From a virus, in the IMG/VR virus record IMGVR_UViG_3300008267_000704, positions 1-22,034 of that record: a DNA stretch of 22,034 nt; one strand, given 5' to 3'. A program made the position numbers and the translations under genes. Positions 14,477 through 19,267 of the stretch are shown here, piece after piece. The notes beneath the pieces are model-generated. The model did no database searches and was not told the origin of the DNA. It saw nothing but the letters and a program-made list of their open reading frames with translations. Position 1 is the first letter of the stretch; every line of letters begins with the position of its first letter.

Positions 14477-15406
14477 ATGAAAGCAGCCGTAGTAGGTATG
14501 CTAAATAATGTAGGTAATAGCCAAAGCCATCACGGTGGAGGCTATTATCACGTTATGACAAACATACTAAACAGTTATCATCCAGAAGGATTAACGATTA
14601 ATCCAGATCCATCTACATGGAATGAGTATGAAAGACTATACATTTTAGAAGGTGTAAACTATCAAGAGAACATATTCAACTTTATTGGTGGGCCACAACC
14701 TGAACATAGAGCTAAGCTAGAAGCTATGGCTAAATATACAGGTCTTCCTATAGCTATAAATGTTCCTATTGATCTTAATGTGTTCAATAAAAGGTTTGGA
14801 TTAGACCATCAATTTCCTGCAATCAATTGTATTAACTATGCCAAGAATTATAGTAATGATACAAGAAAGTTAGTAAGAGGTGATTCACACTCTCTTAGTG
14901 TGTGGAGGCCTGGTTTTGGTTTAGATAGAACTGATGGTAAAACATTATATGGATTCTTAAAAGATGCTGATTCTTTAGTTGAAGAGTGGAACAGTAAATA
15001 TGATGAAGTAGTTTTATACTTTGGCAATATTGATCTTCGCTTTCATTTAATGAGGCAAGAAAATCCAAGAGCGGCAGTAGGAGATTTATTTAGAAGATAT
15101 ATAGAGTTTGCAAAGAAACTAAATAATGCTACTCTAGTTAATTTATTACCGGTTGAGCACGAAAGTCGTAAATTACCTGGTACAGGTTTATATCTTAAAC
15201 AACCTTATTTTGGCACAAGACAAGAAAGGACCAATTTAAGAGATGCCGCAAATAGAATTATGAATAACTCAGGTCTTAAAACTATTCAGTGGCCAGATGA
15301 ATGGATAGATGAAGATGGTATGAAGATGTTTGAGTATATGGAACCTAAACAGTCAGTACACCTAAAGCCTAAATATTATATGTTCTCAGATCAATTTATA
15401 AAATAA
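14477..15406 (+). CDS. SGNH/GDSL-like protein of a candidate DNA hypermodification module (309 aa)
   Basis: Not assignable to a named family with certainty. Visible motifs are VRGDSHSLSVWRPG, with GDSH at 135-138; YFGNIDLRFH, with GNID at 183-186; and a late QSVHLKPKYY with His295. The order Ser, Gly-Asn, His is that of SGNH hydrolases (blocks I, III, V), which cleave or transfer acyl groups. A GxxxxxGNS start (residues 7-15) and a GGPQPEH stretch add conserved-looking turns. The start is an AAGTTATG. The gene overlaps the following transferase-like gene by one base (TAATG), so the two are coupled. I recall proteins of this style in phage clusters with amino-acid:DNA transferases and PLP enzymes, but the role here (for example an acyl transfer to a modified base) is inference. 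Confidence 0.5.
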   Translation: MKAAVVGMLNNVGNSQSHHGGGYYHVMTNILNSYHPEGLTINPDPSTWNEYERLYILEGVNYQENIFNFIGGPQPEHRAKLEAMAKYTGLPIAINVPIDLNVFNKRFGLDHQFPAINCINYAKNYSNDTRKLVRGDSHSLSVWRPGFGLDRTDGKTLYGFLKDADSLVEEWNSKYDEVVLYFGNIDLRFHLMRQENPRAAVGDLFRRYIEFAKKLNNATLVNLLPVEHESRKLPGTGLYLKQPYFGTRQERTNLRDAANRIMNNSGLKTIQWPDEWIDEDGMKMFEYMEPKQSVHLKPKYYMFSDQFIK

Positions 15407-16449
15407 TGCAAAAATTTATAATTAACGAAAAGCTATTAGAAGCATTAGATGAATACGATAAGCGTAGTCTTTTAATGCAGCAACATGGTAGTCTTAAACT
15501 CCCTTACGAAGGAGATCTATACGCAGATGTTAATGATGATCTAATCTATCATGTACCTATTTACGATACAGCGCATCGTAGATTTGCAGCATTCTGTGCA
15601 TTCACTGAAGCTGTATGGTATAAAGAAGACGACTTAAGAAAAATGGGCCACCACTTTACCCATCATGATATTAATGATGAGTTTGATTGGTTTATGCTAT
15701 TCTATTTGTTTAGGCTTTGTGGTTCTGGTATTAATTATGTACCAAGATATAAGACAGATCATATCAAGGACATATTAGGGACGCATGGCTTTGGTAACTT
15801 TTGGATCGTGAATTCTATATTGAAAGAAAAATATACATGGCCAGAATGGAAGCAGGACCTCTATAACCGCATCACGCCATTTACAGATAATAAAGGTTAT
15901 TTACTTCCTCAATTTACATTTGAAGGTGAGACTAGAGGTCACTTAAGAAAGTTTATTCTTGAACACTCTGAAGGATTAGTTAGACATATATTTAATGCTG
16001 TAACAAAAAAGAAGCTTGACATCTATCAAGTAACAGATATTGGTAATGAGTATCTTAATAGCGTAGGATTTAAAAAGCAGAATTTTGTACTAACAGCATT
16101 TGCTGCAGACTTAGGTGAATATTTTCCTGGCTATGTTAATCCAAAAGGTTGGGTATATGCAGGAACAAATGCAGTAAGATGTATTAAAGCTATTTTTCCT
16201 AAGGTTAGTCCTAAAGTAAAAGAGTTTGAGTACATTAATGAAGTACTACAATTCTTGTCTAATAGATACAACTTAAACCCAATTGATTGTGAAGATAGTA
16301 GAGCTTGTGACGTAGTTCGTTATTTTCAAGAATATCAATCAGAAGATCATGTAATTAAAAACAATGGTCGTAGGATGAAGAACAATACAATCCTTAAACA
16401 AACATGGGGTCATGACAAATATTATGACTTCGCAACTAAACTCAAATAG
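15406..16449 (+). CDS. Putative amino-acid:DNA transferase / aGPT-PPlase-like DNA modification protein (347 aa)
   Basis: The core (about 105-145) reads FYLFRLCGSGINYVPRYKTD and then a helical stretch with THGFGNFW, a hairpin-like glycine pattern. Later come FVLTAFAADLGEYFPGYVNP, YAGTNAVRCIKAIFPKV and IDCEDSRACDVVRYFQEY. This architecture resembles the helical, DNA-glycosylase-like proteins predicted by Iyer and colleagues (aGPT-PPlase and 5-hmdU kinase helical families). A related group was later shown to attach amino acids to 5-hydroxymethyl-deoxyuridine in phage DNA. No sequence search was possible, so the family link is from memory of motif patterns. The gene is translationally coupled to both neighbours (overlap of one base upstream, gap of two downstream). 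The product would act on phage DNA after replication. Confidence 0.5.
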   Translation: MQKFIINEKLLEALDEYDKRSLLMQQHGSLKLPYEGDLYADVNDDLIYHVPIYDTAHRRFAAFCAFTEAVWYKEDDLRKMGHHFTHHDINDEFDWFMLFYLFRLCGSGINYVPRYKTDHIKDILGTHGFGNFWIVNSILKEKYTWPEWKQDLYNRITPFTDNKGYLLPQFTFEGETRGHLRKFILEHSEGLVRHIFNAVTKKKLDIYQVTDIGNEYLNSVGFKKQNFVLTAFAADLGEYFPGYVNPKGWVYAGTNAVRCIKAIFPKVSPKVKEFEYINEVLQFLSNRYNLNPIDCEDSRACDVVRYFQEYQSEDHVIKNNGRRMKNNTILKQTWGHDKYYDFATKLK

Positions 16450-16451
16450 TT

Positions 16452-17339
16452 ATGTTCGTAAACAAAGCAACAGACCAATCTAATTTAGATATGTCAGATG
16501 GTAGAGATTTAAACTACTATCTTGAAATGACAAAAGACTACAAGCCTGATTTTGATTTTATCATTAAGCAAATCGATGGCAACACAGTCATAGACGACGG
16601 AGAGTTCCAATACGGTACTAAAGCTAAGATGGGAGATTTTATGATTAGTCAAGTAAAAGAAGACACTCTCGTGTATGTTGCACCAAGAACAGGATATGCT
16701 CCATACTCATTAACCTATCTTGCAAAGAAGTATAATAAGAAGTTGATCTTATTTATGCCAGCATCTAAAGAAGCATCTGAACATCAGCTACGTGTTATTG
16801 AAGATGGTGCAACCCCAATATTCTTAAAGACGCCGGCTATGCCTACCATTAATGGATGGGCAAAAGACTTTGCTCAAAAGATTGGCGCTAAGTATCTTCC
16901 GTTCGGTCTTAAGCATGAACAAGTAGTTGCAGGAGGCGTAAAGATATTCCATGAAGCATTTAAGAATTTGGATATAGATACTATGTGGTCTGTATTTTCA
17001 ACCGGAGTTCTATCTAGAACACTTCAAATTGCACTACCTAATACAAAGTTTAATGCTGTAGCAGTTGCAAGAAATGTACAACCAGGTGAATTAGGAAGAG
17101 CTAAATTCTATGCATACCATAAAGAGTTCTTAAAAGACTGTGATATTGACACTCCATTTGATTGTATTAAAACATACGATGCAAAAGGTTGGGACTATAT
17201 GAAACGTTATGGTAACTCTGGAGATTGGTTCTGGAATGTTGCTAGAAATATGCCCAAGCCAACAATTAAGCCAAGTGACGTAGATTCTCAAAGAGAGTGG
17301 GGTGACAAAACAGACATTGCTAGATACTTAGGACTTTGA
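16452..17339 (+). CDS. Fold-type-II PLP-dependent-like enzyme of the modification module (295 aa)
   Basis: The protein has the two-domain look of the tryptophan synthase beta / ACC deaminase fold. A GTKAKMGDFM segment has Lys57 as candidate cofactor-binding lysine. A helix-rich part LTYLAKKYNKKLILFMPASK is followed by EHQLRVIEDGATPIFL, the usual small-domain pattern. A Gly/Ser loop VFSTGVLSRTLQIALP (181-196) lies where the phosphate loop is expected. The C-terminal YDAKGWDYM (242-250) and WFWNVA (259-264) are motifs I associate with a phage-specific branch of this group. It starts in AGTTATG, two bases after the transferase stop, and ends the module. It could change an amino acid before or after attachment to a base. 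Specific chemistry cannot be read from sequence. Confidence 0.5.
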   Translation: MFVNKATDQSNLDMSDGRDLNYYLEMTKDYKPDFDFIIKQIDGNTVIDDGEFQYGTKAKMGDFMISQVKEDTLVYVAPRTGYAPYSLTYLAKKYNKKLILFMPASKEASEHQLRVIEDGATPIFLKTPAMPTINGWAKDFAQKIGAKYLPFGLKHEQVVAGGVKIFHEAFKNLDIDTMWSVFSTGVLSRTLQIALPNTKFNAVAVARNVQPGELGRAKFYAYHKEFLKDCDIDTPFDCIKTYDAKGWDYMKRYGNSGDWFWNVARNMPKPTIKPSDVDSQREWGDKTDIARYLGL

Positions 17340-17375: not shown

Positions 17376-17726
17376 ATGAATATTCTAGAACAAGCAAACG
17401 AGATCATCTACAAGAGATCTGAAGAGAAGGCCCGTCAATATGGCCCAATGCAAGAAGGTATGCAGGAAGCTGCCAAGATTGCATCGTTATTAAGCCGTAA
17501 AGAGATTACAGCAACTGACATGTATAATGCCATGATTGCACTCAAGTTGTCGAGACAGGCTTACAATCACAAAGAAGACAACCTATTAGATTGTGTAGCT
17601 TATATTGCTTCACTAAACGATTACCAAAATGATTTACAAAATGAAAGTACAAAAGTTATAGAGGAACAGAAGCATCAGCAGGAATTGACTTCTATGTACC
17701 TGAAGATTTTGAAACAACAATCTTAG
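17376..17726 (+). CDS. DUF6378-like protein; reading frame probably ends early near 17661
   Basis: Residues 1-84 show a compact helical domain: NEIIYKRSEEKARQYGPMQE, then EAAKIASLLSRKEITATDMY, then IALKLSRQAYNHKEDNLLD and CVAYIASLNDY. This matches the uncharacterised phage/bacterial family I know as DUF6378 (QYG..., KEIT.TD, ALKLSR..YNHKEDNLLD..Y). The next 32 residues, as read, overlap the dUTPase gene by 86 bases and look like out-of-frame translation. Deleting one A from the AAA at 17644-17646 would end this protein at the TAG at 17659-17661 and would also give dUTPase a clean ATG. Family proteins are about 85-95 residues, so the short form fits. The function is unknown. Confidence 0.65.
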   Translation: MNILEQANEIIYKRSEEKARQYGPMQEGMQEAAKIASLLSRKEITATDMYNAMIALKLSRQAYNHKEDNLLDCVAYIASLNDYQNDLQNESTKVIEEQKHQQELTSMYLKILKQQS

Positions 17727-18049
17727 CACCAGGACAATCTGTTCTTATTCCTTCTGGTATTAGAGCCAGAGTTCCTAGAGGATATGCATTGATTGCATTC
17801 AACAAATCAGGAGTATCAGTTAAGCAAGGTCTATCAGTTGGAGCTTGTGTAGTAGATGAAGATTATGATGGAGAGATTCATCTTCACATGATCAATACAT
17901 CAGACAAAGATCAAACAGTTGTTACTGGACAAAAGCTAGTGCAGTTCGTATTGATCCCTGTAAGCTATATAGATGTAGAAGCTATAGATGAACTTCCAGA
18001 AAGAAATACACAAAGAGGCGTAGGAGGATTTGGTTCAACTGGATTATAA
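17641..18049 (+). CDS. dut: dUTPase (trimeric Dut family), start disrupted by an apparent one-base shift
   Basis: All five trimeric dUTPase motifs are present in the frame ending at 18049: ASAGIDFYV (motif 1), NKSGVSVKQGL (2), GACVVDEDYDGEIHLHMIN (3), GQKLVQFVLIP (4) and RGVGGFGSTGL (5). It converts dUTP to dUMP plus pyrophosphate, feeding thymidylate synthase and keeping uracil out of DNA. The frame is open only from 17645, after an in-frame TGA at 17642, and has no ATG, GTG or TTG before motif 1. ATG at 17641 is one base out of frame. If one A of the run 17644-17646 is removed, or the ribosome slips +1 from AAA to AAG, it starts MKYKSYRGTEASAG. A TTG at 17789 would lose motifs 1 and part of 2, so it is rejected. 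Confidence 0.85.
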
Positions 18050-18237: not shown

Positions 18238-18651
18238 ATGACTAAACTAGACACAGTATTTATAAACATAGCAAAAGAAACCTCTACTCTGTCACACTGC
18301 GTTCGATCAAAAGTCGGCGCAGTTTTAGTTAAAGATGGGAACATAATCTCTTTTGGTTATAATGGCACTCCTTCTGGAATGGATAATGCTTGTGAGAAAG
18401 ACGATATCACTCTGCCCCATGTTATCCATGCAGAAGTCAATGCAGTATTGAAAGCTGCCAAGACTGGTAACTCTGTAGATGGTTCCACTTTGTACTTAAC
18501 GCTTAGTCCATGTTTAGACTGCTCTAAACTTATTCTGCAATCAGGAATAAAAAGAGTTGTATATTTGAATGCATATCGTAACCTAGAAGGGGTTACCTTT
18601 CTTAAACAATTTATACAAGTAGAAGAATATGATATACAGAACTCCAACTGA
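18238..18651 (+). CDS. dCMP deaminase
   Basis: A 137-residue zinc-dependent cytidine-deaminase-fold protein. GYNGTPSGMDNAC (40-52) is the substrate loop typical of dCMP deaminases. Zinc ligands and the general acid/base are HAEVNAVLKAA (His64, Glu66) and SPCLDCSKLI (Cys92, Cys95). It converts dCMP to dUMP, the precursor for thymidylate synthase, and in T4-like phages is regulated by dCTP and dTTP. It overlaps the downstream ThyA-like gene by 23 bases. The gene lies between dUTPase and that enzyme, forming a dedicated pyrimidine pathway. It is slightly shorter than T4 Cd (about 190 residues), like many bacterial forms. Confidence 0.9.
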   Translation: MTKLDTVFINIAKETSTLSHCVRSKVGAVLVKDGNIISFGYNGTPSGMDNACEKDDITLPHVIHAEVNAVLKAAKTGNSVDGSTLYLTLSPCLDCSKLILQSGIKRVVYLNAYRNLEGVTFLKQFIQVEEYDIQNSN

Positions 18652-19267
18652 CGCATTTGAGTTATTGTACCAAGACATCATGTCTGAAGGTGAAGACTTT
18701 GCTAATACCAAAGCTGTATTCAATAAGTCATTCACCATTGAAGATCCTACCAAGAAAGTTATCACTACACCAGTACGTAAGTTCAATCAAGACTACGCTG
18801 AGTACGAATGGTGTTGGTATATGAATGGTAACAGAGATGCTAAAGAGATTGGTGACCGTGCTAAGATATGGAATCAGATGATGATACCAGGGACAACTGA
18901 AGTTAATTCTAACTACGGCTACTTCTGGAAATATAATGATCAGCTAAACCGTGTTATCAATGATCTTAAACTTAACAAAGAAACACGTCGTGCTATCATT
19001 GTACATTATATTCTACACGAGCTTGACAGATACAAATATGACACACCATGTAATGATGTACTTAACTTCTATATCAAAGATGATAAGTTACATATGACTG
19101 TGTTTGCTAGATCTATTGATCTTGTGTTTGGCTTCTGTAATGACCAATATACATTTGCTAAGCTTATGGAATTTGTTTCACAAAAAACAGGCTATCCTGT
19201 AGGTCAAATGCATTGGTTCATTACTAATCTCCACGTCTATCCTAGACATTACGAAATGTTTAAATAA
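18629..19267 (+). CDS. ThyA-superfamily pyrimidine hydroxymethylase, probably dCMP type
   Basis: A 212-residue protein with the thymidylate synthase fold but not a canonical ThyA. The catalytic cysteine is Cys141 in DTPCNDVLNFYI. An RR pair (Arg120, Arg121) and the ARSIDLVFGFCNDQYTFAKL segment match the RS.D..LG.PFN region. In an ungapped alignment the Asn that recognises dUMP in ThyA becomes Asp172, the change found in T4 dCMP hydroxymethylase (Asp179), so dCMP is the likely substrate. HVYPRHYEMF ends the fold. The product would be 5-hydroxymethyl-dCMP (or a 5-methyl form). A true ThyA lies at 21108. This gene is adjacent to the deaminase (23-base overlap) and near the predicted hypermodification module. 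Confidence 0.75.
   Translation: MIYRTPTDAFELLYQDIMSEGEDFANTKAVFNKSFTIEDPTKKVITTPVRKFNQDYAEYEWCWYMNGNRDAKEIGDRAKIWNQMMIPGTTEVNSNYGYFWKYNDQLNRVINDLKLNKETRRAIIVHYILHELDRYKYDTPCNDVLNFYIKDDKLHMTVFARSIDLVFGFCNDQYTFAKLMEFVSQKTGYPVGQMHWFITNLHVYPRHYEMFK

Follow-up and report, generated by a model that had tools for sequence, protein, structure and literature searches.

The stretch of DNA analysed here (the window, 22,034 bases) is a complete IMG/VR virus record, IMGVR_UViG_3300008267_000704, possibly a genome fragment. It carries three consecutive genes, called P1, P2 and P3 below, which probably form a mobile, kinase-less DNA-hypermodification module acting on 5-hydroxymethylcytosine (5hmC). P1 joins a recognition domain like that of a DNA glucosyltransferase to an SGNH-type catalytic domain; P2 is predicted to adopt an all-helical, DNA-glycosylase-like fold; and P3 belongs to a family of pyridoxal phosphate (PLP) enzymes. 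The order and the chemistry of the individual steps are proposed far more tentatively than the module itself.

To our knowledge, in the pathways where amino-acid-based hypermodification relies on glycosylase-fold transferases, the target is hydroxymethyluracil. The module appears to move such chemistry onto hydroxymethylcytosine without the usual kinase and, if this is true, widens the range of amino-acid-type DNA hypermodification to cytosine besides thymine. The initial annotation of the window had proposed a hypermodification module whose combination of SGNH, transferase and fold-type-II PLP enzymes it could not name. The present analysis supports the module, with cytosine rather than thymine as the probable base. 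The P1 protein, the hydroxymethylcytosine context and the missing kinase are new, whereas the transferase-PLP pairing already exists in YuA-like phages. No description of the P1-P2-P3 module was found in the literature searched.

Composition and linkage of the module

The three open reading frames lie on the same strand and are coupled as initially described, P1 and P2 sharing one base and P2 and P3 being separated by two bases (TAGTTATG). Coordinates are given in Table 1. In comparison with the relative at locus L019, the ratio of nonsynonymous to synonymous substitution rates is about 0.08 for P1, 0.06 for P2 and 0.05 for P3, values which indicate, at the sequence level, that all three genes are under strong purifying selection. 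Since they also have relatives in tens to hundreds of viral contigs, these are real genes and not chance reading frames. All the motifs named in the initial annotation are present (GDSH, GNID and a late His in SVHL for P1; GSGINY, HGFGN, YAGTNA and DCEDSRACD for P2), and the majority show no or almost no variation in families whose divergence reaches down to about 30-50% identity.

Searches of IMG/VR with P1, P2 and P3 yielded 265 loci, which reduce to 88 non-redundant groups. The three genes occur in this order in 49 of the 88 groups, and a pyrimidine hydroxymethylase is in view in 39 of those 49. A further 25 groups have P1 and P3 without P2, and across both sets the hydroxymethylase can be seen in most cases. 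The adjacency to hydroxymethylase and dCMP deaminase genes noted for the window holds, both neighbours being genuine genes, and the trio travels with the hydroxymethylase across groups. The settings vary: in immuto-like genomes GroEL lies upstream, and several other genomes have no GroEL nearby, often with a DUF6378 gene upstream. The G+C content of the trio locus ranges from 28 to 45%.

A second helical-type protein, P2b, was first met in locus L134 and is a distant relative of P2 (hhalign E-values of 7.9e-5 and 1.2e-5). When P2b was used as query in a second, independent search, 62 distinct loci were obtained, 45 of which have P1, P2, P2b and P3 together, in four gene orders (loci L302-L378). 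Shared function is the only easy explanation for an order that is permuted while the membership stays constant. The four-gene set is abundant in aquatic phages, and the module as a whole is common in aquatic metagenomic phages, in several genomic settings.

Two gene fusions were also found. In locus L210, P1 and P2 form a single protein of 713 residues. In the cultured Aeromonas phage 44RR2.8t (L138, 5001-7388), the 795-residue ORF233c (phrog_17781) joins a P1-like N-terminal part to a domain resembling the helical domain of 5-hydroxymethyldeoxyuridine (5hmdU) kinases. The latter domain gives a sub-threshold match to PF18723 (E = 0.0036) and an hhalign E-value of 2.3e-4, first among 94 proteins. 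ORF233c has no P3 neighbour in the annotated region.

Domain assignment of P1 and P3

The first 95 residues of P1 match the N-terminal domain of T4 DNA beta-glucosyltransferase with an hhalign probability of 92% and an E-value of 5.4e-7. As a control, the P1 profile was compared with 122 phage proteins: the beta-glucosyltransferase ranked first, and the runner-up had an E-value of 2.3e-3. Beta-glucosyltransferase entries are also among the Foldseek matches of the P1 model, although weakly. P1 lacks the C-terminal UDP-glucose-binding domain of the T4 enzyme and has an SGNH domain in its place. Sequence searches of the PDB with P1 alone and with the P1 profile gave nothing useful. Relatives of P1 are present in Aeromonas T4-like phages, Tenacibaculum phage PTm1 and Stenotrophomonas phages.

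The SGNH type initially suggested for P1 agrees with its AlphaFold model, which has a predicted local distance difference test score (pLDDT) of 87. Residues 124-307 of the model match GDSL/SGNH esterases with a Foldseek E-value of 2.8e-4 and a VIA-align Z of 12.0 (root mean square deviation of 3.5, 160 residues aligned). Ser137, Asn184 and His295 are invariant in 21 sequences, down to 28% identity, and a Glu six residues before the His is nearly invariant. The C-terminal domain, as modelled, is called SGNH-fold here, with no assumption that it acts as a hydrolase.

P3 matches phrog_7093 with an E-value of 1.6e-27, the same family of which YuA gp11 is a full member (7.9e-157). The match of the window protein to PF00291 is below the cut-off. 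Because the P3 family profile reaches cysteine synthases (E = 6.3e-7), sequence comparison confirms the initial assignment of P3 to the fold-type-II PLP enzymes. Its candidate PLP lysine is invariant in 19 sequences, YuA gp11 included, and a C-terminal YDxK...F motif is also common to YuA gp11. In YuA, gp11 stands between gp10, an amino acid:DNA transferase domain (ADDT) protein, and gp12, a radical SAM enzyme, followed by the 5hmdU kinase and the HMUDK_hel protein. A PDB sequence search with P3 gave nothing useful.

Two further phages carry the P3-family PLP domain beside DNA methylases: in Erythrobacter phage R6L (L140, 8810-11230) it lies inside a ParB/DNA-methylase reading frame, and in Microcystis phage Mae-JY30 (L141, 7980-8690) downstream of a DNA methylase gene. 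This context suggests a wider use of P3-type PLP enzymes in DNA modification.

Placement of P2 and points against the module

The initial annotation had linked P2 to the amino acid:DNA transferase/aGPT-PPlase group. The predicted structure, which is all helical, agrees with this: a Foldseek search of predicted viral structures (BFVD) yielded three strong matches, one of them annotated as an amino acid:DNA transferase domain (E = 4.3e-9, 23% identity), and a further match with this annotation at E = 1.3e-3. The match to the HMUDK_hel protein of PhiW-14 was weak (E = 0.29). However, neither Pfam nor profile comparisons give a significant match. Hence P2 is said here to resemble the amino acid:DNA transferase/aGPT-PPlase/HMUDK_hel group on the basis of its model, and is not filed in it.

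Several observations weigh against a hypermodification module. The P2 model has a mean pLDDT of 72, and its best matches among solved structures, with VIA-align Z values of 7.9 to 7.2 (AGOG at 7.9, other helix-hairpin-helix 8-oxoguanine glycosylases, the queuine-salvage protein DUF2419, and 8z2n, the PaMx11 5-PmdU glycinyltransferase PUGT, at 7.3), are in a range that can be due to chance for helical folds and is inconclusive alone. When 20 members of the P2 family were compared with PF18723 and PF18724, none exceeded the curated cut-off; the best E-value was 0.031, to PF18723, and a score of 12.7 bits came up in the contig of L198. In the profile-profile comparison, the known members of the transferase group rank 23 to 136 among 140 proteins, i.e., within the background. 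Furthermore, the Asp normally found three positions ahead of the His is absent from the SGNH domain of P1, nearly all sequences having QSVH instead of DxxH. P1 and P3 occur without P2 in 25 of the 88 groups, so P3 is not strictly dependent on P2. Finally, in ZHF and L348, relatives of P1 or P3 have UDP-galactopyranose mutase and glycosyltransferase genes as neighbours.

Other searches with P2 were also negative. Comparing it by hhalign with the ADDT and HMUDK_hel alignments gave no score above background, a deeper P2 alignment included. P2 has no PHROG match, sequence searches of the PDB with P2 and its profile gave nothing useful, and Foldseek found no significant match in the PDB. With the window protein, its 57% identical relative and the L134 paralogue as tblastn queries, no homologue was found in named phages; none was found in bacterial and archaeal genomes either, in a pattern-based and hence weak scan.

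Given the UDP-galactopyranose mutase and glycosyltransferase genes beside P1 relatives, a sugar-based role for P1 is possible. The corresponding alternative is a sugar-centred modification of 5hmC, in which P1 adds an acyl group to, or removes it from, a sugar attached by a separate glycosyltransferase, and P2 and P3 either produce an amino-sugar or amino-acid ornament or attach it. The glucosyltransferase-like N-terminal domain of P1 fits this, as does the fact that SGNH domains commonly act on sugar esters, acetylxylan and sialate esterases being among the structural neighbours of the P1 domain. Most trio loci, however, the window included, have no recognised glycosyltransferase near the module, and we consider this alternative unlikely, though it is the best of those weighed here. 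The genes in question lie at 1779-3961 in L142 and at 6815-9095 in L348, where a galactofuranose-type DNA ornament is possible.

Probable identity of the modified base

The T4 dCMP hydroxymethylase has an Asp where dUMP enzymes have an Asn. In the window hydroxymethylase (FGFCND), the motif RSIDLVFGFCND aligns with T4 RSNDVVFGFRND, with the Asp at the Asn177 position and the active-site Cys in place. The same Asp is present in every readable trio-linked hydroxymethylase, in the window and its relatives, and the enzymes of YuA, PhiW-14 and SH-Ab 15599 have Asn there. P1 relatives are also present in phages 44RR2.8t and ZHF, both of which have a gp42 that shares about 55% identity with the T4 protein. 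Since the readable trio-linked hydroxymethylases carry the dCMP-type Asp, the modified base, as judged from these signatures, is probably cytosine and not thymine. In the MetaGPA study, an Asp at this residue separates contigs with modified cytosine from others, and the usual neighbours are dCMP deaminase and PRA-PH (PMC8670742). The trio likewise has dCMP deaminase and PRA-PH/MazG-like proteins as neighbours.

These data bear directly on a thymidine-type alternative, according to which the module acts on 5hmdU, as the M6 hypermodification does (PMC6449724) and that of YuA, and its enzymes have diverged. Elsewhere, the transferase-like and PLP families occur in phages with dUMP hydroxymethylases, and the dCMP deaminase and dUTPase-like frame of the window would fit a supply of dUMP. 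Against this stand the dCMP-type Asp of all readable trio-linked hydroxymethylases and the outcome of a search for the 5hmdU kinase family (PF18748), of which no member was found in 22 contigs bearing the trio or P1-P3, several of them longer than 120 kb, although contigs may be incomplete and no control genome gave a hit. Thymidine as the target is thus improbable.

We give about the same low weight to an action of the trio on hydroxymethyl-dCTP before incorporation, instead of on DNA. The 5hmC carbamoyltransferase works on 5hm-dCTP as well as on DNA (PMC8670742), and the trio lies among genes of the nucleotide pool (dCMP deaminase, dUTPase-like, MazG-like); yet the N-terminal domain of P1 matches a DNA-acting enzyme, and the predicted P2 fold is that of DNA glycosylases. 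A role outside DNA modification, in host surface glycans or small metabolites, is very improbable: SGNH and fold-type-II PLP enzymes are common in metabolism and P1-like proteins occur near UDP-galactopyranose mutase, but the hydroxymethylase linkage across different phage genomes, the beta-glucosyltransferase-like domain and the shared PHROG of P3 and the YuA cluster enzyme all argue otherwise.

Proposed route and comparison with known systems

For a module acting on 5hmC in DNA, the following route is conceivable, although we regard it as rather doubtful in its particulars. The T4-type hydroxymethylase would make hydroxymethyl-dCMP, which, judging from the Asp signature, would enter phage DNA as 5hmC. 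P1 would recognise the base in DNA via the domain it shares with T4 beta-glucosyltransferase, and its SGNH domain would carry out an acyl-transfer type of step on the 5-CH2OH group, e.g., ester activation or acyl installation. Because the kinase is missing, we conjecture that P1 could supply the activation step, making an ester leaving group instead of a kinase-made phosphate. P2, which has a predicted DNA-glycosylase-like fold and would work beside P1, its fusion partner in one phage, would then attach an amino acid or a comparable nucleophile to the same carbon, and P3, a PLP enzyme by family, would rework the attached amino-acid moiety. Modified in this way, the phage DNA would be protected against host nucleases. 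If this route is true, the cassette is widespread in aquatic phages.

None of the known systems compared here combines these parts. The thymidine clusters of Pseudomonas phages YuA, M6 and PaMx11 comprise ADDT (PF18724), a PALP enzyme, a radical SAM or flavin adenine dinucleotide (FAD) enzyme, a 5hmdU kinase, HMUDK_hel (PF18723) and a dUMP hydroxymethylase. They share with the trio loci one or more helical transferase-like proteins, a PLP enzyme of the same PHROG (in YuA) and a hydroxymethylase of the thymidylate synthase type in one block; relatives bearing P2b have two helical paralogues, which recalls the two helical proteins of YuA. The differences are that the trio-linked hydroxymethylase is of the dCMP type, that no kinase was found with the trio, that P1 is present, and that P2 is too distant from PF18723 and PF18724 for a sequence match. 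The 5hmC pathway of T4 (gp42 and beta-glucosyltransferase) has the same Asp signature and the domain matched by the P1 N-terminus, but in P1 the SGNH domain stands where the T4 enzyme has its UDP-glucose-binding half, and the trio includes two more enzymes.

The 5hmC carbamoyltransferase system identified by MetaGPA (eLife 2021, PMC8670742) has the same acceptor, 5hmC, and the same supporting cast of an Asp177 thymidylate synthase homologue, a dCMP deaminase and a PRA-PH/MazG-type protein. Its modifying enzymes differ, and no carbamoyltransferase was noticed here. In the CmoX/CmoY 5-carboxymethylcytosine-glycine system (PMC12783734), an amino acid is likewise attached to a modified cytosine of phage DNA; this system uses a carboxymethyl handle and an ATP-dependent amide ligase, not a hydroxymethyl group with a transferase and a PLP enzyme.

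Neighbouring genes and other observations

The features of the locus are presented in Table 1.

Table 1. Features of the P1-P2-P3 locus and its neighbours, in window coordinates.
Feature	Position	Strand	Remarks
P1	14477..15406	+	309 residues; T4 beta-glucosyltransferase-like N-terminal domain and SGNH-fold C-terminal domain
P1 residues 1-95	14477..14761	+	match to residues 1-98 of T4 DNA beta-glucosyltransferase (hhalign)
P1 residues 124-307	14846..15397	+	SGNH-fold domain; VIA-align match to EstL5 and other GDSL esterases
P1 Ser137 (GDSH)	14885..14887	+	invariant
P1 Asn184 (GNID)	15026..15028	+	invariant
P1 His295 (SVHL)	15359..15361	+	invariant
TAATG stop/start overlap	15404..15408	+	couples P1 and P2; one shared base
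P2	15406..16449	+	347 residues; predicted all-helical DNA-glycosylase-like fold; candidate amino-acid (or similar) transferase
P2 residues 294-302 (DCEDSRACD)	16285..16311	+	E296, D297, R299, C301 and D302 invariant
P3	16452..17339	+	295 residues; fold-type-II PLP enzyme of phrog_7093
P3 Lys57	16620..16622	+	candidate PLP lysine; invariant
DUF6378 protein	17376..17726	+	conserved trio neighbour
dUTPase-like reading frame	17642..18049	+	5' end ambiguous
dCMP deaminase	18238..18651	+	
Pyrimidine hydroxymethylase	18629..19267	+	T4 gp42 type; motif RSIDLVFGFCNDQY; Asp at E. coli ThyA position 177

Other genes of the window, some of them named by eye, include UvsX/RecA-type, DnaB-type, ribonucleotide reductase, PolA, GroEL, dUTPase-like, dCMP deaminase and thymidylate-synthase-type genes. 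The virus probably has a Bacteroidota host, since its DNA polymerase and the one from Flavobacterium phage immuto share 56% identity. Immuto, its closest relative in culture, has genes for DpdA and the queuosine pathway (L155, 2009-9016), which correspond to a different (7-deazaguanine) DNA modification.

The dUTPase-like frame (17600-18049) is open upstream of its listed TTG start, with no ATG, GTG or TTG there, and its beginning runs into the 3' part of the DUF6378 gene; a frameshift or an assembly error may be the cause.

A P2-less clade (L250-L289 and L085-L095) keeps P1, P3 and the hydroxymethylase with no recognisable P2, showing that P3 can work without P2 or that P2 is replaced by something unrecognised. 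As candidates for a known-family replacement, PF18723, PF18724 and PF18748 were not found in the phages that lack P2.

An extra gene, present in many relatives between P2 (or P1) and P3, was considered as a missing enzyme and rejected, since its product resembles a membrane or lipoprotein-like protein and the gene comes and goes; it is absent from the window. The protein has 229-257 residues and a membrane/lipoprotein-like start (e.g., L113, 8989-9762), and in 44 loci, redundancy included, its gene stands between P2 and P3. Lastly, a family of about 260 residues, which by eye is like GIY-YIG homing endonucleases, is inserted at several spots around the module (e.g., L049, 1083-1865).

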